A stretch of 64,000 nt of DNA from a virus: IMG/VR virus record IMGVR_UViG_3300021957_003133, positions 51,467-115,466 of that record. One strand, given 5' to 3'. Of this stretch, positions 8,045 through 61,386 are shown piece after piece. Position numbers and translations under genes: made by a program. The notes beneath the pieces were generated by a model. The model was not told the DNA's origin and made no database searches. It saw only the letters and a list, made by a program, of their open reading frames with translations. Position 1 is the stretch's first letter; each line of letters begins with the position of its first letter.

Positions 8045-8208
8045 GTGAAGAAATAAGCACACAACGTATTGCAATAAGTACAGACGGCGTTGAAATAGAC
8101 AGCAGTCAAGGTGACTTATTGTCAGAAGCAGTCCTACTTGGCACCATTGTTATAGTAGTAGCTGTATTATACATAGGTAAGAAATGGATAGACAGGAAGT
8201 TTAAATGA
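8041..8208 (+). CDS. Small single-span membrane protein
   Basis: A 55-residue ORF with ATGA overlaps at both ends, linking it to radical SAM genes 2 and 3. Residues ~28-47 form a hydrophobic helix (Ala-Val-Leu-Leu-Gly-Thr-Ile-Val-Ile-Val-Val-Ala-Val-Leu) followed by a basic tail, which predicts an N-out/C-in anchor. The position inside the radical SAM run suggests it could tether a neighbour to the membrane, but this is inference. Confidence 0.7.
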   Translation: MSEEISTQRIAISTDGVEIDSSQGDLLSEAVLLGTIVIVVAVLYIGKKWIDRKFK

Positions 8209-12503: not shown

Positions 12504-13563
12504 GGTTTCAGTAACACTAAGAAATCCTTTAGTTCGCGATGATCAAATAACATATGACATCATCCTGAATGATACCCAATTGGCTAAAGACTGGGTTGAT
12601 GCTCTTAAACAGATATTACAAAACAACAATCTATTAGAAAAGAACTTTTGTTTCTTAGGGTTTCCAGATACACAACGTAATATTAAATATCTCAGTAATG
12701 AACTTAAACAAGCTGTCGACACTATCAATCAATACTTCGACGATTACGAGATTACAGAAACGTACACACCTGAAACACTACGCAACGGCTTAGATCCTAA
12801 TCAAGATCTTATGAATCAATTACATAATCATTTTGAAGTACTGCAAGGAACTGTAGAGAATCTTAGTGATTACTATAGACGTGCTGACCACGAAACAAAG
12901 TATGCCATAAGACAGTTAAACATTATCTGTCACGAGTTAGAAAGTTTGATGTTAAGCTTACGTAAAAAAGTTAACGCTCCTGATTGGGTACGTAGCAGTC
13001 AAATAACTACATTTTTACAGTGTGAAAGATTCGAGTTAACACATGAACATAGACAAGGATTCTTAACCAACGGATATGATAGACAGTTTGGCGGTGTTTA
13101 TATGCACTGGACACAGATAGGTAAAACACTGTTTGAAGTATTCAATGATGAAGGCGCTCCAGAACTAACAGATGCAGTATGTGACGCTATAACACACCTA
13201 CAATACTATTCAGGTGAGTTTGATGTTGAATGGGGTAACACTGTTAACAGAGGAGACAGCACAGTGCCTTGGCATAATCAGGCACAAGATAAATTTGAAC
13301 AATGGTTACGAGATAATCAGTTGGATCCTACGAATACTCAATTGAGTTTAGGATATTTGCCGTTGGGCAATATTGATCTTACTACGTTTGGCACAGACGA
13401 TCCCAATGAGATAAGAGAAATACTAGGACGTTACCTTGATATCTATAAAATTAAAGTTGACGGAGTGTCGAATACTTTCGAATACTGCTGGACTGATGAT
13501 GATTACAAGCAACAACAAATTAATAGGATGATTCCAGGATATGATTTTAGTAGCAGGGGGTGA
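12481..13563 (+). CDS. Conserved hypothetical protein
   Basis: 360 residues, soluble, acidic, with helical predicted stretches in the first half (residues ~95-160) and a Trp/Tyr/His-rich second half containing Val-Pro-Trp-His-Asn. No catalytic signature is recognisable. It overlaps the radical SAM gene upstream (23 bp) and the SGNH gene downstream (23 bp), so it belongs to the same pathway. Possible partner protein or scaffold; function unknown. Confidence 0.65.
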   Translation: MSGINQSKVSVTLRNPLVRDDQITYDIILNDTQLAKDWVDALKQILQNNNLLEKNFCFLGFPDTQRNIKYLSNELKQAVDTINQYFDDYEITETYTPETLRNGLDPNQDLMNQLHNHFEVLQGTVENLSDYYRRADHETKYAIRQLNIICHELESLMLSLRKKVNAPDWVRSSQITTFLQCERFELTHEHRQGFLTNGYDRQFGGVYMHWTQIGKTLFEVFNDEGAPELTDAVCDAITHLQYYSGEFDVEWGNTVNRGDSTVPWHNQAQDKFEQWLRDNQLDPTNTQLSLGYLPLGNIDLTTFGTDDPNEIREILGRYLDIYKIKVDGVSNTFEYCWTDDDYKQQQINRMIPGYDFSSRG

Positions 13564-14359
13564 TAGTTTTGTTTGGGGCAGTGAGTTAGGAGACTGCAAC
13601 CATGATCATGTTGAGACTCTTGGTAGTTCTAGTGGACATAGTAGTCTTACATTTCCAGCTATTTTAGGACAAGACTACGAATACCAATGTTGTGCTTATC
13701 CAGGAAACGGTAATGATACTATTGCTAGAAATGTTATTATAGCATGCGAAAAAAATAAAGAACAAAATCAAGCACAAGTAGTTTCAGTAACATGGACTTT
13801 CCCAGGGAGATACGAATTTCATGTAGAAACTAGTCAAGGTGCTAAATGGGAAACTATTAATTCATGGACAGTAGGTAAGAAATATACTGAAGAATCTGAT
13901 CAACATTTAAATGAATTTGTCGAACAATTTAACGAACATGCTGAAAGTCTGGGTATAGTAAAATTTGCTAAATCTTATTTTGCTAATGTTGGACATTTAG
14001 AGTATTGGGAAACTTATACTGCTATTAAAGAAATAGTATATTTGCAAAATTATCTCAAAGCAAATAATATTCAGTATCTATTTACATGTGCAGATGTTGG
14101 GTTTCTTAATAATCACACAATAAAAGTCGCAGATGATACTATACGTTCGCTGTATAATCAAATTGATTTTGACCGTTGGTACTTGTTTCCTAAAGGTAGC
14201 AGAGCAAACGAAACCACAGTACCAAGAGGTTTTTACCAATGGGCATTGGAAAATAAGTATAGTATAGGCCCGATGAATCACCCGCTAGAGAAAGCACATC
14301 GAGATGCCGCTCTATTAATAAAGGATAAATTTAATGAATTGGTTCAAAAAAATAATTAA
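13541..14359 (+). CDS. SGNH-hydrolase-like protein
   Basis: 272 residues. Block I is Val-Ala-Gly-Gly-Asp-Ser-Phe-Val-Trp-Gly, a clear GDS motif at residues 7-9, and block II-like Tyr-Pro-Gly-Asn-Gly-Asn-Asp follows. A C-terminal Gly-Pro-Met-Asn-His-Pro-Leu offers the catalytic His, but the canonical Asp at His minus 3 is Pro. Expected role: esterase, or acyl- or acetyl-ester chemistry on a glycan or peptide. It overlaps the upstream gene and a 33-codon ORF at its end. Confidence 0.65.
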   Translation: MILVAGGDSFVWGSELGDCNHDHVETLGSSSGHSSLTFPAILGQDYEYQCCAYPGNGNDTIARNVIIACEKNKEQNQAQVVSVTWTFPGRYEFHVETSQGAKWETINSWTVGKKYTEESDQHLNEFVEQFNEHAESLGIVKFAKSYFANVGHLEYWETYTAIKEIVYLQNYLKANNIQYLFTCADVGFLNNHTIKVADDTIRSLYNQIDFDRWYLFPKGSRANETTVPRGFYQWALENKYSIGPMNHPLEKAHRDAALLIKDKFNELVQKNN

Positions 14360-14435
14360 TCGAATAAAGATGGAACTTCGATATCGTAAAAAGTTAAAAG
14401 AACTTAAAAAACGAGATCCGTTTATCTATAAATGA
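14334..14435 (+). CDS. Very small basic protein (33 residues)
   Basis: The frame runs from ATG 14334 inside the end of the SGNH gene to a TGA at 14433-14435 that forms an ATGA overlap with the next gene. The product is strongly basic and Lys/Arg-rich, ending Lys-Lys-Arg-Asp-Pro-Phe-Ile-Tyr-Lys. It fills what would otherwise be a 72-bp gap, and the coupling geometry supports translation. Function unknown. Confidence 0.55.
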   Translation: MNWFKKIINRIKMELRYRKKLKELKKRDPFIYK

Positions 14436-15067
14436 AATTACTAACAGTAGGAGATAGTTTTACTTACGGTGAAGAGCTTGTAGATATAAACAATGCTTGG
14501 CCTTACCTACTAGGTAAACAGATAGACTACGAAGTTACTAATCTAGGAAGTCCAGGATGTAGTAATGCCCGTATGATTCGCAATGTTATAGAAAATGCAG
14601 ACAAGCATGATTTAATTATCATTGCCTGGAGTCATTTTGCTAGATTAGAAGTATCAGATGAGAATGGTACTTATGATCTTTGGCCAGGTGGGTCGGGAGT
14701 ATTCTTTACTGGAGAGTTGAAGTATAGGAAAGAACTAATAAACTATGTAAACAGACACCACAATGATGAATATTTGTATAATCAATACACAACTAATATT
14801 GTGCTAGTACAAAAATATTTAGAATCTAAAGGCAAGCGTTACATCATGATGGATACGTTTGGAAATCATCAAGACAAACAAAGACAGTCTAATGGTTTAA
14901 TCAGTCAAGTAAACGATCAGTATTATATTGGGTGGCCAACAGAAAGCATGATGGAATGGACCTATAAAACACCACAAGGTCCAGCAGGACATTTTTTAGA
15001 AGAAGGACATCAAAAAGTAGCAGAAAAAATCAATGAATATATTAGGAATATCGGCTGGGTTTCATGA
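14432..15067 (+). CDS. SGNH-hydrolase-like protein
   Basis: 211 residues, close to the normal length of SGNH esterases. Block I is Thr-Val-Gly-Asp-Ser-Phe-Thr-Tyr-Gly (Ser at residue 8), block II Leu-Gly-Ser-Pro-Gly-Cys-Ser-Asn, and the C-terminal Gly-His-Phe-Leu-Glu-Glu-Gly-His offers the His. Asp at His minus 3 is missing. It shares this layout with the proteins at 10721, 13541 and 53741. Its 3' end overlaps the carbamoyltransferase gene by 35 bp. Confidence 0.7.
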   Translation: MKLLTVGDSFTYGEELVDINNAWPYLLGKQIDYEVTNLGSPGCSNARMIRNVIENADKHDLIIIAWSHFARLEVSDENGTYDLWPGGSGVFFTGELKYRKELINYVNRHHNDEYLYNQYTTNIVLVQKYLESKGKRYIMMDTFGNHQDKQRQSNGLISQVNDQYYIGWPTESMMEWTYKTPQGPAGHFLEEGHQKVAEKINEYIRNIGWVS

Positions 15068-16523
15068 TGCTGGCATGAGTTGTGTGAGTGATGGTGAAAT
15101 TTTATTTGCCGCACACAGCGAACGTTACAGTAGACAAAAACATGATAGCAAACTGTGCAGTGAAATGCTGTTTGATTGTTTGTCACGAACCGGCTTACCT
15201 GATGTTATTGCCTATTACGAAAGACCCTGGGTTAAAAAAACTAGACAACTGTATGCAGGGCAATGGAACTCTTTATGGTCAGATTGGTCAGTGCGTAGCA
15301 TGATCAATGAGATTGATATAGAAGGGGCTTTAAAACATGTACCCATAAAAACTTATAATCATCACCTGTCACATGCGGCCGCTGGCTTTCAAACATCACC
15401 ATACAAAGACAGCACAGTTGTAGTCATTGATGCCATTGGGGAATGGGACACTATTAGTATATGGGACGCAAGATACGATAGTCAAGGGCAAGCAACATAT
15501 AAAAAATTATGGGGCCAAAAGTATCCACATTCAATTGGGTTAATGTATTCAGCGTTTACTAAAGAAGTTGGACTACGTCCTTTAGATGAAGAATACATTT
15601 TAATGGGAATGGCCGCATACGGGCAAAGTCATTTTAAAGACGCATTTAAAACAGTGTTGTTAGATGAACCCACCAGTTTAACATTTAGACATAATCTACA
15701 TCTTGGGTTACCAGATGGTGGTGAAGGTGGCTATGGAGAAAACTTTGATGTAGCCGCTGGGGCACAAGAACTGGTAGAAGAACTTATCAATGAAGTAATA
15801 CGCATATCTAAAAAATTAGGTATAAGCAAGAACTTAACTTATATGGGTGGTGTGGCTCTAAATTGTTCAGCCAATAGAGACCTAGGACAGTATTATAATA
15901 ATATATGGATTATGCCTAATCCAGGAGATGCTGGCTCAAGTTTAGGTGCCGCGGCATTAACATACGGAAAACAATTAAATTGGAAAGATGCTTATTTAGG
16001 ATATGATATCAAAGGTGAATACCCAGTTAAAGATTTGTTAACAGAATTATTAGAAAACAAGATAGTAGGTGTTGCTAACGGACCTGCAGAGTTTGGTCCT
16101 AGAGCTTTAGGCAACAGAAGTTTACTAGCAGATCCAAGAGGGCCAGAAATAAAAGATCAAGTAAACGAAATTAAACGTAGACAAAAGTTTAGACCATTTG
16201 CTCCTGTTATCTTAGAAGAATACGCCAACGAGTATTTTCAAATGCCTTCGGGTTTTCCTACTAGCGATTATATGCAGGTAACAGCCTTATGCAATTTTCC
16301 TAAACAATTCCCAGCAATTATCCATCACGACGGAACTAGTCGTGTACAAACAGTACCTAAAAATTCACGCAGTGGTATAAGACAATTACTAGAAGCTTGG
16401 CATGTATGGACAGGATGTCCTATGTTACTTAATACTAGCCTTAATATTAGAGGAGAACCAATGGTAAACAGTCGCAGTGACGCAGAAAGATTCCAAGAAC
16501 ATTATGGGATTCGTGTGTTATGA
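15033..16523 (+). CDS. Carbamoyltransferase, NodU/CmcH family
   Basis: 496 residues, somewhat shorter than the usual 550-600. The N-terminal actin-like (Kae1-type) domain begins Ile-Leu-Gly-Ile-Ser-Ala-Gly-Phe-His-Asp-Ala and carries the metal site His-His-Leu-Ser-His-Ala-Ala near residue 110. The C-terminal domain has the hallmark Glu-Phe-Gly-Pro-Arg-Ala-Leu-Gly-Asn-Arg-Ser and Ala-Asp-Pro-Arg. The family uses carbamoyl phosphate and ATP to O-carbamoylate sugars or antibiotic scaffolds. In this operon a carbamoylated glycan or peptide is the likely product. Confidence 0.9.
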   Translation: MNILGISAGFHDAGMSCVSDGEILFAAHSERYSRQKHDSKLCSEMLFDCLSRTGLPDVIAYYERPWVKKTRQLYAGQWNSLWSDWSVRSMINEIDIEGALKHVPIKTYNHHLSHAAAGFQTSPYKDSTVVVIDAIGEWDTISIWDARYDSQGQATYKKLWGQKYPHSIGLMYSAFTKEVGLRPLDEEYILMGMAAYGQSHFKDAFKTVLLDEPTSLTFRHNLHLGLPDGGEGGYGENFDVAAGAQELVEELINEVIRISKKLGISKNLTYMGGVALNCSANRDLGQYYNNIWIMPNPGDAGSSLGAAALTYGKQLNWKDAYLGYDIKGEYPVKDLLTELLENKIVGVANGPAEFGPRALGNRSLLADPRGPEIKDQVNEIKRRQKFRPFAPVILEEYANEYFQMPSGFPTSDYMQVTALCNFPKQFPAIIHHDGTSRVQTVPKNSRSGIRQLLEAWHVWTGCPMLLNTSLNIRGEPMVNSRSDAERFQEHYGIRVL

Positions 16524-50169: not shown

Positions 50170-50427
50170 CTATAAAGTTCGACCAGCAGTTTCTAACACA
50201 GTTGTTAGTGTTTCGTGATCTGTGTTTGTGTCTGTAAATGAGGATTTTTGTGCAATTTTAATTGCTTTTTTAAGAATACTTGGTTTAACTTGTAGTTCTT
50301 CAGCTACAGCTTTTACAGTATCACTAAGCCCAGCATTCAAATCTTCTACTTCTGAAAGTACTTGAATCCCTTCGTTAATTAACTGAACCAGCTTTGCTTT
50401 TTGTTCTGAATTGAATACTTCTGACAT
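50170..50427 (-). CDS. Small helical protein, possibly DsbA-like dsDNA-binding protein
   Basis: 85 residues. Size and helical layout resemble T4 DsbA (89 residues, binds DNA at late promoters): Asn-Ser-Glu-Gln-Lys-Ala-Lys-Leu, Asp-Thr-Val-Lys-Ala-Val-Ala-Glu-Glu-Leu and Pro-Ser-Ile-Leu-Lys-Lys-Ala-Ile-Lys form a helix-turn-helix-like core. A clear promoter and AAGGAG precede it. Similarity to DsbA is by pattern only. Confidence 0.55.
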   Translation of the reverse strand: MSEVFNSEQKAKLVQLINEGIQVLSEVEDLNAGLSDTVKAVAEELQVKPSILKKAIKIAQKSSFTDTNTDHETLTTVLETAGRTL

Positions 50428-50896: not shown

Positions 50897-51322
50897 TTAC
50901 CACTTACGACATGACCAATATCTTGCTTTAGTTTTTGGCCCAGGACTATCGCAATTATGTCTAGCACGGAAACTTTTACGTGCCGCAGGGTTATTTTTTC
51001 TAATACGCATTGTTTTGCCTTTTACACTTGACCCACCGTGTCCAAAATTTACTTTTTTAATGTTACCTGTTTTAGGATCCTTAACATAAACTTTAAACTT
51101 CTTAACATCACCTTGCATAGGTTTGTTTAGTTGGACTTTACGTCCTTGATATTCTGCTTCTTCAAGAGTTTCTTCTACGTCTCCGTAAGCTTCAAAGAAT
51201 TTGTCATCATCTTCGTAAGTTTCTTCTGATTCAGCATGCATTGCCGCCATATGTTTTTTGTACTTTTCGGTACCTTTCTTATGTGGGCTCTTGCCTTCGT
51301 TTAAGATTTCATTAATTTTCAT
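50897..51322 (-). CDS. Virion-linked conserved protein with capsid-targeting-like N-terminus
   Basis: 141 residues. It starts Met-Lys-Ile-Asn-Glu-Ile-Leu-Asn-Glu-Gly, with a Leu-x-Glu site like T4 gp21 cleavage sites. The C-terminal ~70 residues (Val-Tyr-Val-Lys-Asp-Pro-Lys-Thr-Gly ... Arg-Lys-Ser-Phe-Arg-Ala-Arg-His-Asn-Cys) form a basic, Cys-containing domain that I recognise as common in marine phages (DUF5872-like). Probably a packaged DNA-binding protein, by inference. Ends one base before the following gene's ATG. Confidence 0.7.
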   Translation of the reverse strand: MKINEILNEGKSPHKKGTEKYKKHMAAMHAESEETYEDDDKFFEAYGDVEETLEEAEYQGRKVQLNKPMQGDVKKFKVYVKDPKTGNIKKVNFGHGGSSVKGKTMRIRKNNPAARKSFRARHNCDSPGPKTKARYWSCRKW

Positions 51323-51326
51323 GATA

Positions 51327-51569
51327 TTAGCCTTCTATTGTTTCTAATGTTATTGTTTCTGATATCGGTTCTTTTTCAGGAACTGCATGTGGTGTAGCTT
51401 TGTTTTTTGCTCCGCAATCAAGTTTTAAAAGTAGTATAGCACATAGTAAAGGATTTGGTTTCTTTTTATCTTGTGTTTGCACTTGTTCAGTGTCAACAGT
51501 GTCTTGTACAGTTGTACACCCAGATTGAAGCATTAATATTACTACTAATACAAAAAATAATATTTTCAT
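51327..51569 (-). CDS. Small lipoprotein
   Basis: 80 residues. A signal sequence (Phe-Phe-Val-Leu-Val-Val-Ile-Leu-Met) ends in the lipobox Leu-Gln-Ser-Gly-Cys17-Thr. The mature part is short and Pro/Glu-rich. With the membrane peptide encoded directly upstream (overlapping by 4 bp) it could form an o-/i-spanin pair for outer membrane disruption, but the partner is short for a spanin. Confidence 0.75.
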   Translation of the reverse strand: MKILFFVLVVILMLQSGCTTVQDTVDTEQVQTQDKKKPNPLLCAILLLKLDCGAKNKATPHAVPEKEPISETITLETIEG

Positions 51570-51712
51570 CTATTTGGCTCCACATGTAAGGTGCATATAG
51601 TACCTGGCTCTGTACATTTTAGTATTGTGTCATAGTCTATTAGATAACCATTAGCTATATGACTAAGTCCTAGTATTACAGACGCAATAATAATTGCCTT
51701 ACTTGTTGTCAT
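51566..51712 (-). CDS. Small secreted or membrane peptide (48 residues)
   Basis: ATG 51712 overlaps the upstream stop (ATGA) and the TGA overlaps the lipoprotein ATG. Residues ~4-20 are a hydrophobic signal or anchor, followed by a short region with two Cys (Leu-Lys-Cys ... Ile-Cys). Possible partner of the lipoprotein. Confidence 0.6.
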   Translation of the reverse strand: MTTSKAIIIASVILGLSHIANGYLIDYDTILKCTEPGTICTLHVEPNR

Positions 51713-52284
51713 TTCTTCTTACCACTTTTCATATTAGCACACCAGTGATACATTTTTGCTTTTTCACCAGATGCTTTTTTTGCCTTTGCTCTTAAGTCTG
51801 TTACTGAACCTTTACAACTAGCACCAGCCTTTTTTACTCTACCTGGACGACTTTTACCTTTTTTTTTACCGTCGGCGAAGTTTTCGTTCATACTAGCACG
51901 TTTGCCCCAATCTAAACTTATTTTGTCATCTGTGATTGGACCACCTGCGGCCCATGTTTCACATGTACGTGCTGAATGACATTTAAAATGATGCATCCAA
52001 CAGTACCCAAGTTTACCGTAGTCATCGGATGTTTTACCAGGCATACATTTTTCCATCCTTGGTGATACATCAAACGCTACACAGTTACCACATAGGCTTT
52101 CTTTAGCTGATTCTTCTGTAGTGTCCCAAAGTTTAGCGGCCTTCTTCCAATAGTCAGCTGGGTTTTTAAAGTTCAATGGTCCATACATATAATTCTTGAT
52201 TGTTGAATTTCTATTGTCTGTATTAATAGCTATGTCCTGTGTAGCTGGCGGACATTTTGCTTCAAGTATTTCCTGGACTTTCAC
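51709..52284 (-). CDS. Cys-rich virion-linked protein with capsid-targeting-like N-terminus
   Basis: 191 residues from GTG 52284, whose GTGA overlap with the upstream stop decides the start; the N-terminus then reads Met-Lys-Val-Gln-Glu-Ile-Leu-Glu-Ala. The core Cys-Gly-Asn-Cys-Val-Ala-Phe ... Gly-Tyr-Cys-Trp ... Cys-His-Ser-Ala-Arg-Thr-Cys is a metal- or Fe-S-type Cys cluster found in marine phages. The basic tail ends His-Trp-Cys-Ala-Asn-Met-Lys. Function unknown. Confidence 0.65.
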   Translation of the reverse strand: MKVQEILEAKCPPATQDIAINTDNRNSTIKNYMYGPLNFKNPADYWKKAAKLWDTTEESAKESLCGNCVAFDVSPRMEKCMPGKTSDDYGKLGYCWMHHFKCHSARTCETWAAGGPITDDKISLDWGKRASMNENFADGKKKGKSRPGRVKKAGASCKGSVTDLRAKAKKASGEKAKMYHWCANMKSGKKK

Positions 52285-52793
52285 TGATTTTCTCCAATTA
52301 TTGGTTTTACTTCCATAAACTCTGGACACTGTTTGTTGAACAATCGCATAATAATACCAGCTTCACTGTTAGCTTCGTTTTCAGCATCGCTACCAGTCAT
52401 CCAACTATCGTCGACAAGTTTGCTATCACAGTCTTGTTTATAGTGTACCATTTCGTGTGCGAGTGTTCTAAGAATATCAACAGGATGTCTGTCAGAAATA
52501 CTTAGATGTATATTCTTGTTGTTTGGATCATAGCCGCCAAAGCTGGCTTGATGTGTACCTGTTTGTTTTTTGCAAAGATGTATTTTAGGAAGTTTTGTTA
52601 TATTTAGATGCTTACAAGCGATAGGCAGTAGTTGTCGAAATCCTTCCATGAGATCTAGATCGTGTTTTTGTTCTTCGTTTGTTTTTTTCTTACCGTCGCA
52701 ATGAGCTTGCTGACTAAACCCTTTTGGGTTTGAACAGTCGATTGAACGCTTATATTTCTCCGTCCATTTTTCAAATAAGTCTAAAGCTAGCAT
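52281..52793 (-). CDS. Zinc metallopeptidase-like protein with capsid-targeting-like N-terminus
   Basis: 170 residues. It starts Met-Leu-Ala-Leu-Asp-Leu-Phe-Glu-Lys (Leu-Phe-Glu site). Asp-Cys-Ser-Asn-Pro-Lys-Gly-Phe-Ser-Gln-Gln-Ala-His-Cys is a separate small motif recurring in marine phage proteins. Leu-Ala-His113-Glu114-Met-Val-His117-Tyr is the HExxH zinc site. The ATG is 7 nt from a late octamer and lacks Shine-Dalgarno. Likely packaged peptidase; target unknown. Confidence 0.75.
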   Translation of the reverse strand: MLALDLFEKWTEKYKRSIDCSNPKGFSQQAHCDGKKKTNEEQKHDLDLMEGFRQLLPIACKHLNITKLPKIHLCKKQTGTHQASFGGYDPNNKNIHLSISDRHPVDILRTLAHEMVHYKQDCDSKLVDDSWMTGSDAENEANSEAGIIMRLFNKQCPEFMEVKPIIGENQ

Positions 52794-52800
52794 GATATAG

Positions 52801-52808
52801 TATTTATT
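52801..52808 (-). promoter_or_regulatory. T4-type late promoter octamer (AATAAATA)
   Basis: AATAAATA, CTATATC, then the ATG at 52793, the same string as at 39857-39840. Implies leaderless late transcription of the metallopeptidase gene and those behind it. Confidence 0.6.
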
Positions 52809-53370
52809 TCAGACCAATCTTCATAAAACGATTGTATTGGGTACCTTCCACACATTCTAAAGGCATTTGTTTAAGGCAGTAAGTTTCAACTAACGGATAA
52901 GCTTCATCAAATACTGTCAGTGTTTGATATAAATTTTCTTTGTTCCCCCGTTGTTGGTCTCTACCTTGTAATGCTACTATGGTTCCATTAGGGATATTGT
53001 CAAACCATTCTTGACCTTCGATATCATTGGTGCTGGTATTAATTACTAACGAATCGTTGTCTTTGAATTTGGTATTATTGCAGTCCTGCGTAACTGGCAC
53101 GACTTTTTCGCAACAAGCGTTTTGTTTGGCATATTCGGTATTTTTAGGGTCAATATCTATCAAAAATAGCTTATTACATACAATATTTCGGTCTAATATG
53201 TACTGTGCTATACTTCCGTACCAACTACCTAAAGCATATACATTGTCAAATTTATCATGCCCTAATCGTTTAAGAGTCCGACATAACCATAGCTTACCTA
53301 GATTGAGATCTTGACTCATGCTACCGGCTGGGGTGTTCGGAGAACTTTCAAAGAGTTCAATAGCTATCAT
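52804..53370 (-). CDS. Methyltransferase-fold protein with capsid-targeting-like N-terminus
   Basis: 188 residues. Met-Ile-Ala-Ile-Glu-Leu-Phe-Glu-Ser resembles the start of T4 Alt (Leu-Phe-x-Glu style). The rest has Val-Tyr-Ala-Leu-Gly-Ser-Trp-Tyr-Gly-Ser-Ile and Leu-Ile-Asp-Ile-Asp, motifs I and II of class I methyltransferases, then Val-Ile-Asn-Thr-Ser-Thr-Asn-Asp (motif IV-like). The start overlaps the upstream stop by 4 bp. Substrate unknown. Confidence 0.65.
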   Translation of the reverse strand: MIAIELFESSPNTPAGSMSQDLNLGKLWLCRTLKRLGHDKFDNVYALGSWYGSIAQYILDRNIVCNKLFLIDIDPKNTEYAKQNACCEKVVPVTQDCNNTKFKDNDSLVINTSTNDIEGQEWFDNIPNGTIVALQGRDQQRGNKENLYQTLTVFDEAYPLVETYCLKQMPLECVEGTQYNRFMKIGLK

Positions 53371-53744
53371 TTGGTTCCCTTTGTTTTTATCTGTCGTATC
53401 CTTCCTGGAGTACGTACTCTTACTGGTTTAGTTACTTTCCTTTTAAATCTTTTAGGAGTTTCGCCTCTCCATTTATTTAATTTTTTAACTGTTCTACTAG
53501 CACGTGATCTTGTTTTAGTACGATTACTTTTAAAAGCCTGCATTTTGTGTGTTCTAGCTCTAACTTTCTTAAATCTATTTGACTTTGCTACATCTAATGC
53601 TTGGTTACAGTTACTGACATCCGGTACCGTTCTTCCTTTACGTTGCCCAGTTTCACATCTCCAAAAGAGGTTGATATGCCCTGTGTTAGGATTACGCCTA
53701 AACACAGCTCTATGCTCTTTAACTATAAACTCTTTTGCTCTCAT
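53367..53744 (-). CDS. Highly basic packaged-type protein
   Basis: 125 residues, very rich in Lys and Arg throughout, starting Met-Arg-Ala-Lys-Glu-Phe-Ile-Val-Lys-Glu. Asn-Pro-Asn-Thr-Gly-His-Ile-Asn-Leu-Phe-Trp-Arg-Cys forms a small N-terminal domain. Composition and N-terminus fit a T4 internal-protein-like DNA-associated virion protein. ATGA coupling at both ends. Confidence 0.7.
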   Translation of the reverse strand: MRAKEFIVKEHRAVFRRNPNTGHINLFWRCETGQRKGRTVPDVSNCNQALDVAKSNRFKKVRARTHKMQAFKSNRTKTRSRASRTVKKLNKWRGETPKRFKRKVTKPVRVRTPGRIRQIKTKGTK

Positions 53745-54415
53745 AATTTAAAGTAATCAATGAATAACCTAGCTATTCTTTTATGTCCTAGTTCATTTGG
53801 ATGTGTTCTGCATCCTTCAAAATACTGTCCTTGGAAGTCTTCCTCGGCTGGTCCGTCCCACAGATCAGCATTGTATGTTTGGAACAACCTTAAAAACTTA
53901 TTTCTTTCGGTTAGTATTTCTGTTAAGCTTTTACTATCTAAAAACTTTTTTCTATCAATGGCTAATCCGAATTCATGTATTTTATCAATCTGACCGTAGT
54001 TATGTATCATACTATACCGACACCCTTGATCATTTAATATCTTTTGTATGGTATAAACAAACACAGCGTGGTGATATTCAAACCACCTCAAACTTTTATT
54101 ACCTAAGAACTCTTTATACCGTTTAGTTAAGTTGCCGGTCCCTTCCATACTATACATATTATGGAATCCGTCTTCTTCACTTTCATCATACCATCTTACA
54201 TCTGGCGGAATAATTACAGTAACTATGTCATCGTTTTCTATTTGCTTAACATTTGCTACAATAGTTTGTAACACATTGCCAAGACTAAATCCTTCTACTC
54301 CATAATTACTATATTCTACACCTAACTGCTGAGCCATCCAGTGCGGATACGGTTTTTCACCTTCATTTAATTCAGCTCCGTATGCCCAACTATCTCCAAA
54401 TGCTATTATTTTCAT
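53741..54415 (-). CDS. SGNH-hydrolase-like protein
   Basis: 224 residues. Block I is Ala-Phe-Gly-Asp-Ser9-Trp-Ala-Tyr-Gly; block V reads Cys-Arg-Thr-His-Pro-Asn-Glu-Leu-Gly-His, where the usual Asp three residues before His is Cys. It is related to the three SGNH proteins of the plus-strand operon but lies in the cargo cassette. It has no targeting-like N-terminus. Confidence 0.7.
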   Translation of the reverse strand: MKIIAFGDSWAYGAELNEGEKPYPHWMAQQLGVEYSNYGVEGFSLGNVLQTIVANVKQIENDDIVTVIIPPDVRWYDESEEDGFHNMYSMEGTGNLTKRYKEFLGNKSLRWFEYHHAVFVYTIQKILNDQGCRYSMIHNYGQIDKIHEFGLAIDRKKFLDSKSLTEILTERNKFLRLFQTYNADLWDGPAEEDFQGQYFEGCRTHPNELGHKRIARLFIDYFKL

Positions 54416-54496
54416 ATTATTGTATGCCCACTTCGGTGTTTTAATCCTAGGCAGGAGCCTCCTAACATAACGGTCCTATGGCTATGTTCTTTTATA

Positions 54497-54504
54497 TATT
54501 TATT
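54497..54504 (-). promoter_or_regulatory. T4-type late promoter octamer (AATAAATA)
   Basis: AATAAATA overlaps the stop codon of the upstream gene, 81 nt before the SGNH ATG. The 84-bp intergenic space also holds a short imperfect palindrome AGGAGCCTCCT (54456-54466) of unknown role. Confidence 0.45.
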
Positions 54505-55717
54505 GCTCTTTAGGTGGCGGAACGTACTCTACAGTTATTTTACCGTCTTTGAGTGTTACCTGTATCTGTCTGTATATTGTAGTTGGTAATCCATCTTGTC
54601 TATCTATTGCGTTTTCTACACTAATACTAAACACATTTTCTAAATCGCCTATGTATTGATTACGTCCGTCATCTTCCTCAATTTGTCTAGCTAGTTCACG
54701 CACTTCATCTACAGTTATATCAAGGGCACCGTAAACATTACCATAATATGCACTAGCAGAATCATTGTATTCTGTGTATGAAGGATAATCATCTTTGTAT
54801 TCACCTTCTTCATCAACGTAACCCTCGTCTCGAAGATACTCATAATACCCGTCATCGCTCATTTCCCAATCCATCATAACTTCATTTAAGAATTCTAAAC
54901 TCATCTGTTTAATTTCTTCACAGGCTTTCCTAAGTTCATCTTCATTAGGGAAAAATATTATACGTCCACCCAAGTCTGGGTCAACAGTTAGCCACCACTC
55001 TCTAAAGTCTTCACCGAAGCGTTCTATTAAATCTCCTGCGTCTACGTCACGATCCTGTTCGTCCATGTACTGTCCAGACTCTGGATGTACCTGATACTTT
55101 TCACCTTCGTATTGGGCTTTGGTAGGAAGTAAGATGTACATTGGGCCATCTCGATTGTATCTATCAAACATATTGTTACTGTCTGCGGCTGTACACCAGC
55201 GTGTGCCTTGTCCATAGTAGCAAGCGGCACTGGTATCTTCAGGCTGTATGACACGCACACCTGCGTCTTTATAAATTTCTTTTGCTTGACCTTTATCTCG
55301 CTGTTCCTTGCCTTCAGGTTCTTCATATTGATCAACTGCATCATAGAATGATTTTAAATCTTTAAATCTATTAAAGTCTGAGTGTTCAGGTTTAAGTAAT
55401 TTTTTAACTGCTAGAGTAGCAAACTTGGTTAGATAGTCACGCATTGTACTACCTATGTCTTCCCATTTGAGTAAACCGTTGGCATACATACGAGCAAGTG
55501 CCTGTGTATACTTTTTCTGTTTAGTAGGATCGCCCACTTCAATTTGATTTTTAAGTATCATCTCAGCGGCTTCTACAGGAGTTAAGTTGTCCTGTATATT
55601 TTTTCTAACAGCACCCGGAACAGTGTTATCAGCCATAGCAGTATTAACTAGCTTGGCGGCAAATGCCTGTGCTGTTTTTGATCTATCGTATTCTATTATA
55701 AAGTGTCTTGCTCTCAT
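54500..55717 (-). CDS. Cargo-type protein with Trp-Cys-Thr domain, paralogue of the gene at 56573
   Basis: 405 residues. The start Met-Arg-Ala-Arg-His-Phe-Ile-Ile-Glu-Tyr has an Ile-Ile-Glu cleavage-like site. The central domain (~150-230) reads Ala-Cys-Tyr-Tyr-Gly-Gln-Gly-Thr-Arg-Trp-Cys-Thr-Ala-Ala, then Tyr-Ile-Leu-Leu-Pro-Thr-Lys and Met-Asp-Glu-Gln-Asp-Arg. The same order occurs in the paralogue. The C-terminal part is acidic and unlike the paralogue. Domain function unknown to me. Confidence 0.7.
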   Translation of the reverse strand: MRARHFIIEYDRSKTAQAFAAKLVNTAMADNTVPGAVRKNIQDNLTPVEAAEMILKNQIEVGDPTKQKKYTQALARMYANGLLKWEDIGSTMRDYLTKFATLAVKKLLKPEHSDFNRFKDLKSFYDAVDQYEEPEGKEQRDKGQAKEIYKDAGVRVIQPEDTSAACYYGQGTRWCTAADSNNMFDRYNRDGPMYILLPTKAQYEGEKYQVHPESGQYMDEQDRDVDAGDLIERFGEDFREWWLTVDPDLGGRIIFFPNEDELRKACEEIKQMSLEFLNEVMMDWEMSDDGYYEYLRDEGYVDEEGEYKDDYPSYTEYNDSASAYYGNVYGALDITVDEVRELARQIEEDDGRNQYIGDLENVFSISVENAIDRQDGLPTTIYRQIQVTLKDGKITVEYVPPPKEQ

Positions 55718-55718
55718 T

Positions 55719-56573
55719 TTACTTCCTAAATATTGATACTACGATTGGGTATTCACCGTCACCCGCTATTAATTGTTCGTATGCTTTCTTACCTTGACGT
55801 TGTTCGTGATCACGCCATACTTCATCAATCACTGCATCTGGATCCTCACAGTAATCTTCGTCTGATTGACAATCATCAGTAAAGCCTTCAACGTGTACTA
55901 CCCAAGTGTTGCCTTTACTATCTTTAATCTCATCAACTGAAACGTCTTCTGGTGATCTTCCTTCAATCCACCTTTCTACTTCAGGTGGCAACGGCTTTTC
56001 TTCATCTTCATTTACTTGTTCATCCCAAGGTGTAACTAGTCCCCAACTGTCTGGATTTCTTTGTAGCGTATCTATGTTAATAAGACCATAGGGCTTAAAA
56101 TCTAAATCTATTAGATGACGTTCAAACCATAGTACTTCATCACCATAGCCTTCTGCGTTTTGTTCATCATTAGTAACATTAATAACTGCTGTTCCTTCGA
56201 CTTCTTTCTGTAGTTCCCATGCTTCTTCATCATCAATACCTAAGTAATCCATTACTTCATTGTCCATTGGTATTGGAACAGCACTAGGCTTAGGTAATCC
56301 ACCTCGTCTAATGTTATCAGCTTCTTGTTTACTAATGCCACGATACCAGCCAGCATCGTCCTCACCTTCTGCAACTACTTTTTTTAAATCGTGTTCAACA
56401 CCCTTAGATAAATCTTTTGTGTGATGCTTGTGTGGCAACGCAAATGTTTCACCGGTATCATCATTCTTATATACTTCGTGACTACCGTGTGCTCTTTCTT
56501 TATGAAAGTTATTCTTTTTTAATATCTTTTCTGCCTCACGATGTGACATTTCTTTAAATTCTTGATATCTCAT
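55719..56573 (-). CDS. HicA-like toxin domain fused to a possible ADP-ribosyltransferase-like domain
   Basis: 284 residues. After Met-Arg-Tyr-Gln-Glu-Phe-Lys-Glu, residues ~12-70 match the HicA mRNA-interferase pattern: Glu-Ala-Glu-Lys-Ile-Leu-Lys-Lys-Asn ... Gly-Ser-His-Glu-Val-Tyr-Lys ... Leu-Pro-His-Lys ... Asp-Leu-Ser-Lys-Gly. The catalytic-type His of Gly-Ser-His is present. Then Trp-Tyr-Arg-Gly-Ile-Ser ... Ile-Asn-Val-Thr-Asn-Asp ... Ala-Glu-Gly-Tyr resembles the Arg and STS regions of ADP-ribosyltransferases, weaker evidence. No HicB antitoxin is seen nearby. Confidence 0.6.
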   Translation of the reverse strand: MRYQEFKEMSHREAEKILKKNNFHKERAHGSHEVYKNDDTGETFALPHKHHTKDLSKGVEHDLKKVVAEGEDDAGWYRGISKQEADNIRRGGLPKPSAVPIPMDNEVMDYLGIDDEEAWELQKEVEGTAVINVTNDEQNAEGYGDEVLWFERHLIDLDFKPYGLINIDTLQRNPDSWGLVTPWDEQVNEDEEKPLPPEVERWIEGRSPEDVSVDEIKDSKGNTWVVHVEGFTDDCQSDEDYCEDPDAVIDEVWRDHEQRQGKKAYEQLIAGDGEYPIVVSIFRK

Positions 56574-57895
56574 TATGCTCTCTCCGGCTCCCCACCTACG
56601 TATCCTGTTACTGACATTGGATAACCATAACTATCTAACAGTTGGTTAATCGCTTTCTCATACTGTTCTTCAGCTAAACTACTCGTTTGAGCTTCATCTT
56701 CTATTCGTACCATACCTTTTAAGAATTTTTCTAATTTCTCAACTTCAGGCTCATTACTTAATTCCTCAGCCTTTTCAAAATCAACACTACTAACTGTAAG
56801 AACTGCTGATTCTGGTTCTTCGCCTAGTTCAGCATATGTTAAACCTAAACAATCATCACTTGTTGCGTCAAACCAACCGTAGGCTATGTATTCTGTACCT
56901 GCTAGATTTGCCCAACTGTTGCCTTTCATCATGTTCTTTTCAACTAACATGTCAATGGTACTACGACTAATCTCCCAGGTGTCTAATGAAGTTCCAGGTT
57001 GATTTAGACTTAGAGTATACATATCACCGTGCATTACACGATTATTAATTATCTTTGCATCAGTCTCTTTTTTCCACTCAGCATAATCTTCATCAGTCAT
57101 TAGTGCTGGTATAGTTTTACGTTTAGCCCAATCAGTTATTGTTTTAATATTACGTATTGAAGGATACTGTTCTAGTACCTTGTACATATCTACTTCACGA
57201 TCTTGCTCGTCCATAAACTGTCCACTTTGGAAATGGAACTGATACTTTTCACCCTCATACTTGGGTTTAGTAGGCATTATGATATACATGTCGCCCATCT
57301 TGTGATACTGATCAAACATATTGTTACTACGTGCCGCAGTACACCATTTAGTACCTTGCCCATAATAACAAGCCGCCGCTTTGTCTTTAGGCACTATAAC
57401 TCTAATCTCACTGTCACGATATATTTCACGACTGCTACCTCTGTCTGTAACAGGTGCTTCTAAGTCTTCTTCACTGTAATCTGCCATTGCTGTTAATAGA
57501 TTAACAGGCTGTTTCATTTGATTAATGTCTTTGTGTTCAGGCTTTAGTTTCTTTCTTAACTTGAGAGTCACATACTTTTCTAGTGCATCTCTCATTTTAC
57601 TCTTAATGTCTTCTAATGGAATAATTTCTTTTGAATACATACGGGCCAACCATTGACTGTATTCTTTATTTTTTGTAGGATCTCCCATTTCAATCTGAGT
57701 AAACACTTTGTTTAATAAATCTTGTTTGTCGTTAGGATGTAGTTCTTTCCAACTACCGCTACGTGAGTGTAAGTTCCATATATCTAAATCGGCACGAGGT
57801 TGCTTATCTCTCTGTAGTGCTTGTATGATTTTTTCACCATGCACCTGCTGAGTTTTTTCTCTGGAGTACTCTAAGATAAATTGTTTTGCTCTCAT
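56573..57895 (-). CDS. Cargo-type protein with Trp-Cys-Thr domain, paralogue of the gene at 54500
   Basis: 440 residues, starting Met-Arg-Ala-Lys-Gln-Phe-Ile-Leu-Glu-Tyr. The central domain has Ala-Cys-Tyr-Tyr-Gly-Gln-Gly-Thr-Lys-Trp-Cys-Thr-Ala-Ala, Met-Phe-Asp-Gln-Tyr, Glu-Lys-Tyr-Gln-Phe-His and Phe-Met-Asp-Glu-Gln-Asp. The flanks (helical N-terminal part, Leu/Glu-rich C-terminal part) differ from the paralogue. It overlaps its neighbours by 1-4 bp. A conserved Trp-Cys-Thr-Ala core suggests an enzymatic Cys, but this is inference. Confidence 0.7.
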   Translation of the reverse strand: MRAKQFILEYSREKTQQVHGEKIIQALQRDKQPRADLDIWNLHSRSGSWKELHPNDKQDLLNKVFTQIEMGDPTKNKEYSQWLARMYSKEIIPLEDIKSKMRDALEKYVTLKLRKKLKPEHKDINQMKQPVNLLTAMADYSEEDLEAPVTDRGSSREIYRDSEIRVIVPKDKAAACYYGQGTKWCTAARSNNMFDQYHKMGDMYIIMPTKPKYEGEKYQFHFQSGQFMDEQDREVDMYKVLEQYPSIRNIKTITDWAKRKTIPALMTDEDYAEWKKETDAKIINNRVMHGDMYTLSLNQPGTSLDTWEISRSTIDMLVEKNMMKGNSWANLAGTEYIAYGWFDATSDDCLGLTYAELGEEPESAVLTVSSVDFEKAEELSNEPEVEKLEKFLKGMVRIEDEAQTSSLAEEQYEKAINQLLDSYGYPMSVTGYVGGEPERA

Positions 57896-58626
57896 TTTTT
57901 AAATATATTTCCTTTTGTATCTTCGGCTATAACATGTACTTTGCCGTCGTATTTAAATTTTATATATGGATCCTGTGATATAGATATCTTAGTATCTGCT
58001 TGCATAATAATATATTCTTCTTCGTCAACCCAAGTAATAGTTTTAATAATCCATTCTGGTATATAACCGCCTGACTCTAAATCTTTCTGTAGTCCACTAA
58101 ACATTGGATGTTTAATTCTAGTTGTTTTATAACCTTCTTTATCTTTAAACAATATCTTACCTAGGTCTTTTGTCAATGCCGGATCATGTACATCCATGTA
58201 ACCTGAACAACCACCACTAGCTCTAATACCAGTTTTGTGTGTAAACAAGTCACCCATAGCTGTTTCTCCAACTATACGAACATAACTATCTGTTTCCATT
58301 CTAACACGTGTTGATATTTCAGTGTTTTGTGTTCTGTCTGTTAATTTAAATGTTGCTACATGTTGTACTGGATTAGCATCAATGACCAAGTAAAGTTTAA
58401 CAAAACGATCAGTATTAACAGTAATAGTTACAGGTACCTGAGCACCACTGGCCGCTCTTTTAGGACCCGATATTGTTAACTCATCATTTTTATCTAGTTC
58501 AACTGCTGTTCTAACACCAAACATTCTTTCTTGTATGTAAGGCCATAGATCAGGATTAAAATGTTTGTCGTCATACGCAAACACCTGACTTGTAAACAAC
58601 ATTAACGCTATTAGTAATAGTTTCAT
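57892..58626 (-). CDS. SoxYZ-like carrier protein, quinoprotein-dehydrogenase-associated type
   Basis: 244 residues from ATG 58626, right after the upstream stop. Signal peptide 1-17 (ending Val-Phe-Ala). A SoxY-like beta-sandwich contains Val-Pro-Val-Thr-Ile and Leu-Tyr-Leu-Val-Ile-Asp-Ala-Asn-Pro, and its carrier swinging arm is Ala-Ser-Gly-Gly-Cys140-Ser-Gly. A SoxZ-like domain follows (His-Pro-Met ... Ile-Pro-Glu-Trp-Ile-Ile). Fused SoxYZ carriers of this kind accompany PQQ-dependent dehydrogenases in the periplasm. Role in infection unknown. Confidence 0.8.
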   Translation of the reverse strand: MKLLLIALMLFTSQVFAYDDKHFNPDLWPYIQERMFGVRTAVELDKNDELTISGPKRAASGAQVPVTITVNTDRFVKLYLVIDANPVQHVATFKLTDRTQNTEISTRVRMETDSYVRIVGETAMGDLFTHKTGIRASGGCSGYMDVHDPALTKDLGKILFKDKEGYKTTRIKHPMFSGLQKDLESGGYIPEWIIKTITWVDEEEYIIMQADTKISISQDPYIKFKYDGKVHVIAEDTKGNIFKK

Positions 58627-58627
58627 A

Positions 58628-58963
58628 TTATGACTTTGCCTTATCAAATAGCATGGCTAATATCATAGCACCAATACCTGTGACTAATGCTTCTGTCCAC
58701 CACGCACCAAAGTGACTAGATACAAAGATTAAATCAGCGCCTGCTGTTGCAACTCCTGTAAGCCAAACTATAGTCCATTTGTTATCCAATTTTGGTATAA
58801 AACTTGCTAATAGGACAACTAGTCCTGCTATTGCTCCTGTCTTAGAAGCAACTCCAGCATGATATAAACTTAGTACACTCAAGTCACCTTGAACCATACA
58901 AACCATACAAGCTGTCCAAGCTTCACTAAACTTTTGAAACCATAGCTTAAATTTAATTTTCAT
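58628..58963 (-). CDS. Multi-span membrane protein
   Basis: 111 residues with about four hydrophobic segments (residues ~15-35, 43-58, 64-82, 88-105). TAAGGAG precedes the ATG. It is coupled to the SoxYZ-like gene by a 1-bp gap. No family recognised; a partner of the carrier or a membrane component of virion release are alternatives. Confidence 0.65.
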   Translation of the reverse strand: MKIKFKLWFQKFSEAWTACMVCMVQGDLSVLSLYHAGVASKTGAIAGLVVLLASFIPKLDNKWTIVWLTGVATAGADLIFVSSHFGAWWTEALVTGIGAMILAMLFDKAKS

Positions 58964-58966
58964 ATG

Positions 58967-59338
58967 TTACTCCTTAACAGGATAGTATGCTGGTATTTGT
59001 TGCATACCTAACTGTTTTGCTTTAAAAGCACGGTGGTTCCCATCTATTATAACACCATTATGGTCAATTACAATAGGTCTTGCTAGTATTTCTTCTTTAC
59101 TGATTCTATCAATTGTGTCATCATCAAAGTCTTGTATACGATTATATGGATCCGATGTTTCATCATCATCATAGTCTTTTACTTTGACCATTGACATAGG
59201 TACTCGATCCATGTCCCAATCTGGATGATCAGTTACTGCGTGATCTAAATGATCTGACCAATCGTGATGTTGTTGCTTAACGTATTTTAAAACATCAGTA
59301 TTCAGATAACTTTCAATTATGAACTCAGTTGCTCGCAT
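58967..59338 (-). CDS. ParB-like nuclease-domain protein with capsid-targeting-like N-terminus
   Basis: 123 residues. Met-Arg-Ala-Thr-Glu-Phe-Ile-Ile-Glu-Ser gives the Ile-Ile-Glu site. The C-terminal half has Ala-Arg-Pro-Ile-Val-Ile-Asp ... Val-Ile-Ile-Asp-Gly99-Asn-His-Arg102-Ala-Phe-Lys-Ala, the GxxR signature of ParB/Srx-fold proteins (which use CTP or ATP or act as nucleases). The size is only the core domain. Likely packaged; target unknown. Confidence 0.7.
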   Translation of the reverse strand: MRATEFIIESYLNTDVLKYVKQQHHDWSDHLDHAVTDHPDWDMDRVPMSMVKVKDYDDDETSDPYNRIQDFDDDTIDRISKEEILARPIVIDHNGVIIDGNHRAFKAKQLGMQQIPAYYPVKE

Positions 59339-59676
59339 TATATCGTTTTATCCTTGAGCATATCTTTTACTATTGGGTACGTCTTACTCTGATTTGGCAT
59401 ACCTTGTAAAAATCTTAATATATTATTAAACTCCACTCTTGCTTCTTCTTTCATTCCTGCACTGCTTAATTCTTTGATATTTTTTATTGCTCGAAATATG
59501 CTTAAAGCTATACCACCAGCTTTTTTAGCTTGCTCTTGAGATTGTGGTTCAGATTTTTGCATTGGATTATCTGTCATCGATGCCATAGCTGGATCGTACG
59601 TCAATGCGGCTAACAAAGCGGCTATTGCCGCATTAGTTCTTATACCTTCGTTTACTATGATTTCTTCAGCTTTCAT
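59338..59676 (-). CDS. Small cargo-type protein
   Basis: 112 residues from ATG 59676. Met-Lys-Ala-Glu-Glu-Ile-Ile-Val-Asn-Glu-Gly fits the shared N-terminus. The rest is helical with an Ala-Ala-Ile-Ala-Ala-Leu-Leu-Ala-Ala-Leu segment. The start is 6 nt after a promoter -10 box and lacks Shine-Dalgarno; an in-frame GTG 15 bp upstream is the alternative. Function unknown. Confidence 0.6.
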   Translation of the reverse strand: MKAEEIIVNEGIRTNAAIAALLAALTYDPAMASMTDNPMQKSEPQSQEQAKKAGGIALSIFRAIKNIKELSSAGMKEEARVEFNNILRFLQGMPNQSKTYPIVKDMLKDKTI

Positions 59677-59682
59677 AACTTT

Positions 59683-59711
59683 ATTATACACTCTTTGTTA
59701 ATATTTGTCTA
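59683..59711 (-). promoter_or_regulatory. Sigma70-type promoter, likely leaderless
   Basis: TAGACA (59706-59711), 17-bp spacer, perfect TATAAT (59683-59688), 6 nt before the ATG at 59676. The -35 box has one mismatch and lies in the upstream coding end. Confidence 0.55.
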
Positions 59712-60418
59712 AACCATTCACCAGTACCAGGCAAACATGCTCGATCCTCTGGAAGTACCAGTTGTGCTTTTTCAAATGATTCTTTAGCATCCTTAACTAA
59801 TTGTTCATAGTTAGGATCGTTTTTAATTTTCCTAATAATACTTTCAACTGATTGCATATCTTTCACAGTACCACCTAAAAGTTTATCTGCTATTTCTTGA
59901 GGGTCTTTAGTAATTACCTCATTACTGGCACGGCTTATTAAGCCATACTTTTGACTCCATTTTAATCCGTAGAACTTAGCAATACTTGATAATAAAATAT
60001 GTCTATGCAATCCCTTATAAGGCGACCCTTCCGGAGAACCTGTTAGACTAAATTTCTGCCATTCTGGATCACCAAACATAAAGTCTACTTGTACGTAACC
60101 ATTAGCTTCATCGCCTAAGATAGGTGCTTTATAATGTACTGAGTCTCCACTCTTACGTAGGTCTTCTGCTTTAACTTTCTTACCTAGCAATTGATTAATT
60201 AGTGTTTGCTTATCTATTTTGGTTTCATCAACACCTAGATCCAAATCACCTGATGTTTCCTTGCGTCCAGTTGATCCTAACATGTTGTCTACAAGATTGA
60301 GTCCTGTTAATCGTTCTAACCACTGTACTGTAGGAACAACATTATCACGTGTAATACGTTGTGTTAAAGGTTCACCCTTTTCATTTTTAAAAACATTACC
60401 GCCTTCTAGTAATATCAT
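59684..60418 (-). CDS. Nucleotidyltransferase-fold protein
   Basis: 244 residues. Gly48-Ser49-Thr-Gly-Arg-Lys-Glu-Thr-Ser-Gly-Asp58-Leu-Asp60-Leu is the GS...DxD signature of the polymerase-beta-type nucleotidyltransferase fold, and Val-Gln-Val-Asp-Phe-Met supplies the third Asp. It begins Met-Ile-Leu-Leu-Glu-Gly, which has a Leu-Leu-Glu site but a shorter targeting-like segment. Likely transfers NMP to an unknown acceptor, possibly an RNA or protein of the host. Confidence 0.7.
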   Translation of the reverse strand: MILLEGGNVFKNEKGEPLTQRITRDNVVPTVQWLERLTGLNLVDNMLGSTGRKETSGDLDLGVDETKIDKQTLINQLLGKKVKAEDLRKSGDSVHYKAPILGDEANGYVQVDFMFGDPEWQKFSLTGSPEGSPYKGLHRHILLSSIAKFYGLKWSQKYGLISRASNEVITKDPQEIADKLLGGTVKDMQSVESIIRKIKNDPNYEQLVKDAKESFEKAQLVLPEDRACLPGTGEWFRQILTKSV

Positions 60419-61386
60419 TTTTTCGTCCTTTTACTAACGTATTTTGCATGCGGAACTTTAAGATTCTTTTTACCGTACACTTTACCAATTTTATGTCTAT
60501 AACTTAGATTGTTTGGATCTAATCCATAAAAATGATCCATTGATTCATCCATTTCTTTAATCACATACTGCTCGTCCCACATTTTGTTCAATGTTCTTTC
60601 AGGATACTTAGTTTCCGCATTAGGATCGAATTGACTAGCACTTGGATCCAGCACAGTTGTTCCCATCTTAACTACATAGTGTTTCCAATATTTTTTAGGT
60701 ATTTCTTTCCATCGCTCATCTGCTTTACTGTCATCACCTTGATAACCTGCTACCTGTATCAGTTTAGCATCTAGTCCTTTTTGTTTAGCACGAGTGTATA
60801 ATTGTTCAGCATAGTCGTAGCACTTGTTGAACTCATCTTCTTTTAATGCAACTGTGCTATATGCTTGATCTAACTGATCTTTAACTATTTGTAGACTGTC
60901 CTCATCAGCTTGATATTTAATTCCAATACCACCAGCTTTCCTCCAGGCATCTATGTTTGTTCCTTTGTCATCTATTAGTATGTTAGGTGTCTGCCCATTG
61001 GTTGCAAATTGTGCCTTATTGCTAGTAATCTGTATTGTTTGAGGTTGAGGGTTAAGATGTTCTTTGATCCAAATCTTTTTCCATTTTTCACTGTTAGCAT
61101 AGTCGTTACGCAATGGAGAACTACAAATACTGTAACTGCCGGCATAACTGATTGCAAGATTTACTAATTGGTCTGCTGTAGGGAATTTAGGTAGTCTAGC
61201 AAAGAAGTCCGTTCCTATTAGGCTATCTAATATCGGATCAACTTTGGCCGCTGGTATGTCTCTATATGATTCTACATCTGCTAGTTTAGCGTACTCAGCA
61301 AAAAAGTTCGCAAGAACACCATCCATATCTAGATAGATTATAGTGTCCTTAGTTGCTTTAATTTTTACTAGTTCACTTGCTCTCAT
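60415..61386 (-). CDS. HAD-type phosphatase fused to a papain-like domain
   Basis: 323 residues. Ile-Tyr-Leu-Asp20-Met-Asp22-Gly-Val-Leu is HAD motif I, and Ile-Leu-Ile-Asp139-Asp140 is motif IV. The second domain has Asn-Lys-Cys189-Tyr-Asp-Tyr-Ala, Trp-Lys-His236-Tyr-Val-Val and Val-Leu-Asp247-Pro-Ser-Ala, a Cys-His-Asp arrangement seen in papain/transglutaminase folds. Met-Arg-Ala-Ser-Glu-Leu-Val-Lys at the start is a weak version of the shared N-terminus. ATG 6 nt after a late octamer; no Shine-Dalgarno. Confidence 0.7.
   Translation of the reverse strand: MRASELVKIKATKDTIIYLDMDGVLANFFAEYAKLADVESYRDIPAAKVDPILDSLIGTDFFARLPKFPTADQLVNLAISYAGSYSICSSPLRNDYANSEKWKKIWIKEHLNPQPQTIQITSNKAQFATNGQTPNILIDDKGTNIDAWRKAGGIGIKYQADEDSLQIVKDQLDQAYSTVALKEDEFNKCYDYAEQLYTRAKQKGLDAKLIQVAGYQGDDSKADERWKEIPKKYWKHYVVKMGTTVLDPSASQFDPNAETKYPERTLNKMWDEQYVIKEMDESMDHFYGLDPNNLSYRHKIGKVYGKKNLKVPHAKYVSKRTKK

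Follow-up and report, generated by a model that had tools for sequence, protein, structure and literature searches.

About ten proteins of an ocean virus of bacteria, largely unrelated in body, share an N-terminal peptide that is very probably a T4-type capsid-targeting propeptide. They are encoded in a cassette (50897-61386, minus strand) that adjoins the DNA polymerase gene within the 64,000 nucleotides analysed here (the window), which correspond to bases 51467-115466 of the 115,466-base virus record IMGVR_UViG_3300021957_003133. According to this reading, which we hold with considerable confidence, the cargo would be docked in the prohead, cut by a gp21-type protease, kept in the head and most likely delivered.

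Ten open reading frames (ORFs) of the cassette open with M-x-x-x-[EDQH]-[FIL]-…-E, hereafter the tag, and all starts listed in a preliminary description of this DNA are present on the minus strand. That description had counted about twelve members; ten tags are clear, and those of the ORFs starting at 60418 (MILLEGGN) and 61386 (MRASELVKI) are degenerate and unconvincing alone. It had also placed a cut site in at least seven N-termini. The site, [LIVF]-x-E, lies within the first ten residues of all ten clear tags, whereas at 60418 and 61386 it is missing or degenerate; homologs of the 60418 protein in L006 and L008 carry full tags with the site at the N-terminus (MVTKLLEGGN and MRFAEILKEGGN). 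A regular expression fixed early (M, 1-4 residues, [EDQHN][FILV][ILFV], 0-1 residue, E), which matches 0.85% of internal start codons by chance, matched 7 of 16 cassette ORFs, 3 of 13 in the head module and 2 of the 90 ORFs outside both (cassette versus elsewhere, p=1.4e-5). Beyond these matches there are the looser tags MRAKEFIVKE, MKAEEIIVNE and MRYQEFKE. Synonymous codons differ at 12 of the 30 residues shared by the four MRA tags, which points to selection on a conserved peptide and not to a recent DNA copy.

When the same expression was applied blind to T4, 9 of 278 ORFs were selected, namely the internal proteins (IPs) IPII and IPIII, Alt, gp21, gp22, gp24, gp2, gp61.1 and segE. Six of the nine are known gp21 substrates, and one, segE, is a false positive. 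The sharing of a capsid-targeting sequence (CTS) among the IPs of T-even phages is established, and the peptide of the cassette is a variant of the T4 CTS, not an identical one. T4 gp24 has been described as carrying a short N-terminal propeptide (PMC5694885). The hypothetical T4 protein gp61.1 (NC_000866, 18966-19130; L268) starts with MKTFKEFIKED, much like the targeting peptide of the T4 IPs.

The cassette peptide is also borne by a conserved head-core protein. The remaining half of the virus record holds a T4-type head module comprising gp23 (PF07068, E=7e-97), a gp22-like scaffold, the gp21 protease (L002:8358-8999; Peptidase_S77 PF03420, E=3e-26; phrog_207, E=2e-57) and, ahead of a portal-like gp20 assigned by eye, a 283-amino-acid acidic core-like protein together with a small ORF. 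The closest cultured gp23 proteins (64-68% identity) belong to large phages related to T4, namely Vibrio 2.275.O, Sinorhizobium Phosso, PA5oct, GAP32 and CBB. The ORF that separates the core protein from gp20 (L002:10003-10242) begins with MNILEFFETA. Searches with the bodies of this protein and its PA5oct homolog, from which the first 14 residues had been removed, retrieved 50 ORFs located nearly exclusively within gp23 loci. Nearly all of them start with M-[NILFK]-[ILF]-x-E-[FILMV]-[FYL], and this type of peptide is found across about 45 gp23 relatives. The PA5oct member starts with MKINDIITEGYY (compare MKINEILNEGKS of the window) and is annotated as detected by electrospray ionization tandem mass spectrometry (ESI-MS/MS).

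Conserved predicted cut sites are seen in two groups of proteins. In relatives of gp23, L-x-E is kept in 82 of 82 sequences at the end of the propeptide, 19 residues ahead of a conserved LPVIRR. The HVA1 module, which allows the most stringent test, occurs in two forms. The HVA1 protein of CRP-902, HTVC202P and Aegir is a bare module starting with MA[KT]Y, and the complete records of these three phages lack Peptidase_S77; in phages with S77 (the window phage, Melnitz, C48C1, HTVC008M and immuto) the module is preceded by an N-terminal region and a junction reading LEE/A, LTE/A, MME/S or LDE/G (slash, predicted cut). This correlation between tag and S77 refers to seven complete annotated records, fragmentary contigs being uninformative (S77 in 5 of 41). 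Of 62 distinct HVA1 junctions, 49 contain [LIMVF]-x-E, compared with a background of 7.2% in the same linkers, and 59 have alanine at P1'. The predicted cut would free the form that is seen alone in phages without S77.

Cyanophage S-CREM2, for which a virion proteome with coordinates has been published (PMC10665884), links the tag to virion content. A profile built from N-termini of Melnitz, HTVC008M, C48C1 and T4, without any S-CREM2 sequence, placed exactly 4 of 223 S-CREM2 genes above the threshold of 5, and all four encode virion proteins (p=0.0023): a cytidylyltransferase (MKNFSSFLTEA), ORF136 (MQTFSMFFSED), an S-adenosylmethionine (SAM) hydrolase (MKDFDSFLEEF) and a kinase (MKRFDAFLTEE). 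ORF13 (MKDLHSFLTEQ) is likewise a virion protein. Tags are also present on relatives of the cytidylyltransferase in Melnitz, S-SSM7 and L009. A virion-detected Cas9-like protein of S-CREM2 (OR473000, 7704-10313; L272) has a tag-like LRFASFMAEA about 16 residues past its annotated start, and the real start may differ. In PA5oct, the proteins with the two highest tag scores are virion proteins, and EST35_0205, a homolog (29% identity) of the cassette protein encoded at 56573-57895, is annotated as virion-detected by ESI-MS/MS.

Genes around DNA polymerase in 80 contigs were also scanned with an N-terminal profile learned from the window together with five contigs. Tags were found on 59 of 501 upstream genes, 3 of 539 downstream genes and 1 of 485 matched internal starts. 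After removal of near-identical contigs and duplicates the enrichment persisted in 78 related contigs (46 of 435 upstream versus 3 of 500 downstream, p=5e-13), with one or more tags in 28 of 50 informative contigs. The tagged bodies form at least 22 clusters, which is a coarse count because single linkage joins 57 proteins via small Cys/basic modules that they share. Among the tagged bodies are a GH19 enzyme, a GP88-like protein, a large protein with GNAT, a fusion of cytidylyltransferase and 5'-nucleotidase, and others without a match. In Flavobacterium phage immuto (L018), several adjacent proteins repeat another N-terminus, MKKSQLRQIIKEAL, which may be the dialect of a further clade.

Several results weigh against interpreting the tag as a T4-type propeptide. 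The window-trained profile ranks T4 IPII and IPIII only at positions 14-15 of 128 and Alt at 63; its failure to rank the T4 IPs first implies that each clade uses its own dialect and that only a looser pattern is common with T4. The S-CREM2 profile was made after the N-termini of this phage had been viewed, and the authors of the proteome allow that the virion enzymes may be contaminants and recognised no targeting signal (PMC10665884). In the PA5oct virion mass spectrometry data, 4 of the 10 proteins with the best tag scores are virion proteins as opposed to 91 of 438, a difference that is not significant (p=0.13). Finally, the cutting glutamate is missing from many tags of the head-core protein, which suggests that docking or targeting and cutting are separable.

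This last point, together with the small basic nature of several cargo proteins, would fit a peptide that merely docks structural or scaffold-like internal proteins in the prohead, with no delivery to the host. We consider this improbable, because the cargo comprises enzymes and a HicA toxin-like domain, a SAM hydrolase and a kinase are among the tagged virion proteins of S-CREM2, and T4 IPI-III function in the host cytoplasm (PMC12373910, PMC9391042). The location of the cassette next to DNA polymerase could alternatively point to a head-independent cytoplasmic address, for example for a phage replication compartment, a membrane or a protease, and short N-terminal addresses of such a kind exist. 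However, a motif that selects head proteins in T4, is present on a head-core protein and tracks the virion content of S-CREM2 makes such an address very hard to defend. Equally little speaks for common descent or composition bias, i.e., recent duplication or a general preference for M-K/R starts. Two bodies (54500 and 56573) are indeed paralogs, with 38% identity, which qualifies the earlier claim of unrelated bodies; yet the nulls from internal starts and downstream genes lie about 20-fold below the observed frequency, and both the number of body clusters and the differing codons argue against copying.

Prohead targeting and cutting after [hydrophobic]-x-E, as proposed in the preliminary description, are thus supported by the T4 control, the core protein, the HVA1 junctions, the S-CREM2 virion data, the phage's own gp21 gene and the L-x-E of gp23, and comparison lends good support to every step as far as packaging. 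We propose that the tag docks unrelated cargo into the scaffold core of the prohead during head assembly, and that the phage's own gp21-type protease would then cut after [hydrophobic]-x-E, which would take off the tag and sometimes split linked domains. The cargo would stay with the DNA in the head and most likely enter the next host, where it may act ahead of phage gene expression. Injection and effector roles of the cargo are inferred from the parallel with IPI-III and Alt of T4 (PMC3012670, PMC12373910).

The system resembles T4 IPI, IPII and IPIII in that a short N-terminal peptide, which has a gp21-type site at its end and acts together with the prohead core, precedes otherwise unrelated proteins (PMC3012670, PMC12373910, PMC5694885), and, as in other systems with a T4-type CTS, a gp21-type Peptidase_S77 prohead protease is encoded in the same genome. 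By contrast, the dialect of the window is MRAxEFIxE or MxxxELFE and that of T4 MKTYQEFIAEA, about ten genes are gathered in one block, and among the cargo are enzymes, a HicA-like domain and proteins of several domains that contain internal sites. The ADP-ribosyltransferase Alt of T4 is likewise an enzyme packaged via an N-terminal peptide (MELITELFDE), close to MIAIELFE and MLALDLFE of the window, but the cassette yielded no Alt homolog. The tagged proteins of S-CREM2 virions (SAM hydrolase, kinase, cytidylyltransferase and small proteins) extend the likeness to virion proteins of non-structural type in the cyanophages S-CREM2, S-SCSM1 and S-CBWM1; the publications on these, however, recognised no targeting peptide and regarded contamination as possible (PMC10665884, PMC9602691). 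DarB of phage P1 is an anti-restriction protein packaged through an N-terminal signal (PMC9024508), but the Dar proteins have no common N-terminal consensus and the signal is not common to the cargo. Polyvalent proteins are multi-domain effectors that are also thought to be packaged (PMC5512222).

The principle is already known from T4; new are the clade-specific dialects, cargo made up of enzymes and polyproteins, and a way to account for the enzymes of cyanophage virions. In the open-access literature we found no report of the peptide from T4-like phages, whether marine or jumbo. The peptide provides a sequence rule to predict which unknown genes of such phages act as soon as infection begins, and a targeting explanation for cyanophage virion enzymes (SAM hydrolase, kinase, cytidylyltransferase and perhaps Cas9) that had been left as possible contaminants. 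Many hypothetical genes become candidates for injected anti-defence or host-takeover proteins that are individually testable.

All tagged ORFs of the cassette lie on the minus strand. The first (50897-51322; tag MKINEILNE, 51296-51322) encodes a basic HVA1-family protein (phrog_7595) of 141 amino acids with a second predicted cut, LEE/A (51158-51166), directly ahead of the HVA1 module. It is followed by a basic protein (51709-52284; MKVQEILE, 52261-52284) with a GTG start 15 codons inside a longer ORF, a zincin-type metallopeptidase (52281-52793; MLALDLFE, 52770-52793) with HEMVH and weak matches to M91 and phage metalloproteases, a methyltransferase-like protein (52804-53370; MIAIELFE, 53347-53370) whose fold was assigned by eye with no Pfam match, and a very basic protein of net charge +34 (53367-53744; MRAKEFIVKE, 53715-53744). 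The two paralogs share a 'YGQGTxWCTA' motif (paralog 1, 56573-57895, MRAKQFILE at 57869-57895; paralog 2, 54500-55717, MRARHFIIE at 55691-55717). Between them, the protein encoded at 55719-56573 (MRYQEFKE, 56550-56573) combines a HicA toxin-like domain and a second domain, with an internal site VAE/G (56367-56375) in between. The remaining clear tags belong to a ParB-like protein (58967-59338; MRATEFIIE, 59312-59338) and to an ORF (59338-59676; MKAEEIIVNE, 59647-59676) whose ATG lies 5 codons inside a longer ORF and whose tag is directly followed by a hydrophobic, signal-peptide-like stretch. The degenerate tags precede a nucleotidyltransferase-like protein (59684-60418; GSTGRKETSGDLDLG; MILLE/GGN) and a HAD 5'-nucleotidase with a C-terminal domain (60415-61386). 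Structure models were too poor to be of use for 56573-57895 and for 55719-56573, a conceivable ADP-ribosyltransferase (pLDDT, i.e., predicted local distance difference test, 47 and 44, respectively), and Foldseek gave no match below E=0.5.

The cassette is not tagged throughout. Four ORFs inside it are untagged: a lipoprotein-like ORF (51327-51569), a GDSL-type esterase-like protein (53741-54415, minus strand), a membrane ORF (58628-58963) and a SoxY-SoxZ fusion with an ordinary signal peptide (57892-58626, minus strand; PF13501, 4e-25; PF08770, 1.5e-16). The latter suggests a sulfur-oxidising host. A search for near-identical DNA in the phage collection found none. A scan for late promoters located ATAAATA upstream of two cassette genes (directly upstream of 52281-52793 and of 60415-61386) and of about a dozen late genes, a result too weak to be given weight.

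It is tempting to speculate, albeit with more doubt than confidence, that large T4-related phages of many hosts possess a general platform to tag, pack, cut and deliver proteins, in which any protein that acquires the tag of the clade would be admitted to the head, polyproteins would be split there by the prohead protease at module boundaries, and some cargo would carry a hidden export signal that becomes active only after the tag is removed and directs injected enzymes to the periplasm. A possible example of the latter is L165:7272-7907, where the tag MRATEFVTE is followed by Pfam TAT_signal (residues 9-29) and a lysozyme domain of GH19 type, and the TAT signal may be freed by the prohead protease; an alternative start at an internal methionine is possible. 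In L005 the tag MRFYEIIRE is joined directly to the domain that in the window stands after tag, HicA and VVAE/G, i.e., a domain swap. Polyprotein-like tagged multi-domain proteins are L015:13342-15294 (cytidylyltransferase and HVA1), L009:9083-12463 (cytidylyltransferase and 5'-nucleotidase) and L161:2097-5873 (GNAT domains and HAD).

Two further observations concern the neighbourhood of the cassette and a distant part of the window. An 85-amino-acid protein (50170-50427, minus strand) is conserved directly upstream of DNA polymerase among relatives, and its PA5oct counterpart (216266-216541) is annotated as detected by mass spectrometry. After the tail fibre region, a run of genes judged by eye to be radical-SAM-like and SGNH/GDSL-like occupies positions 5311-16523.

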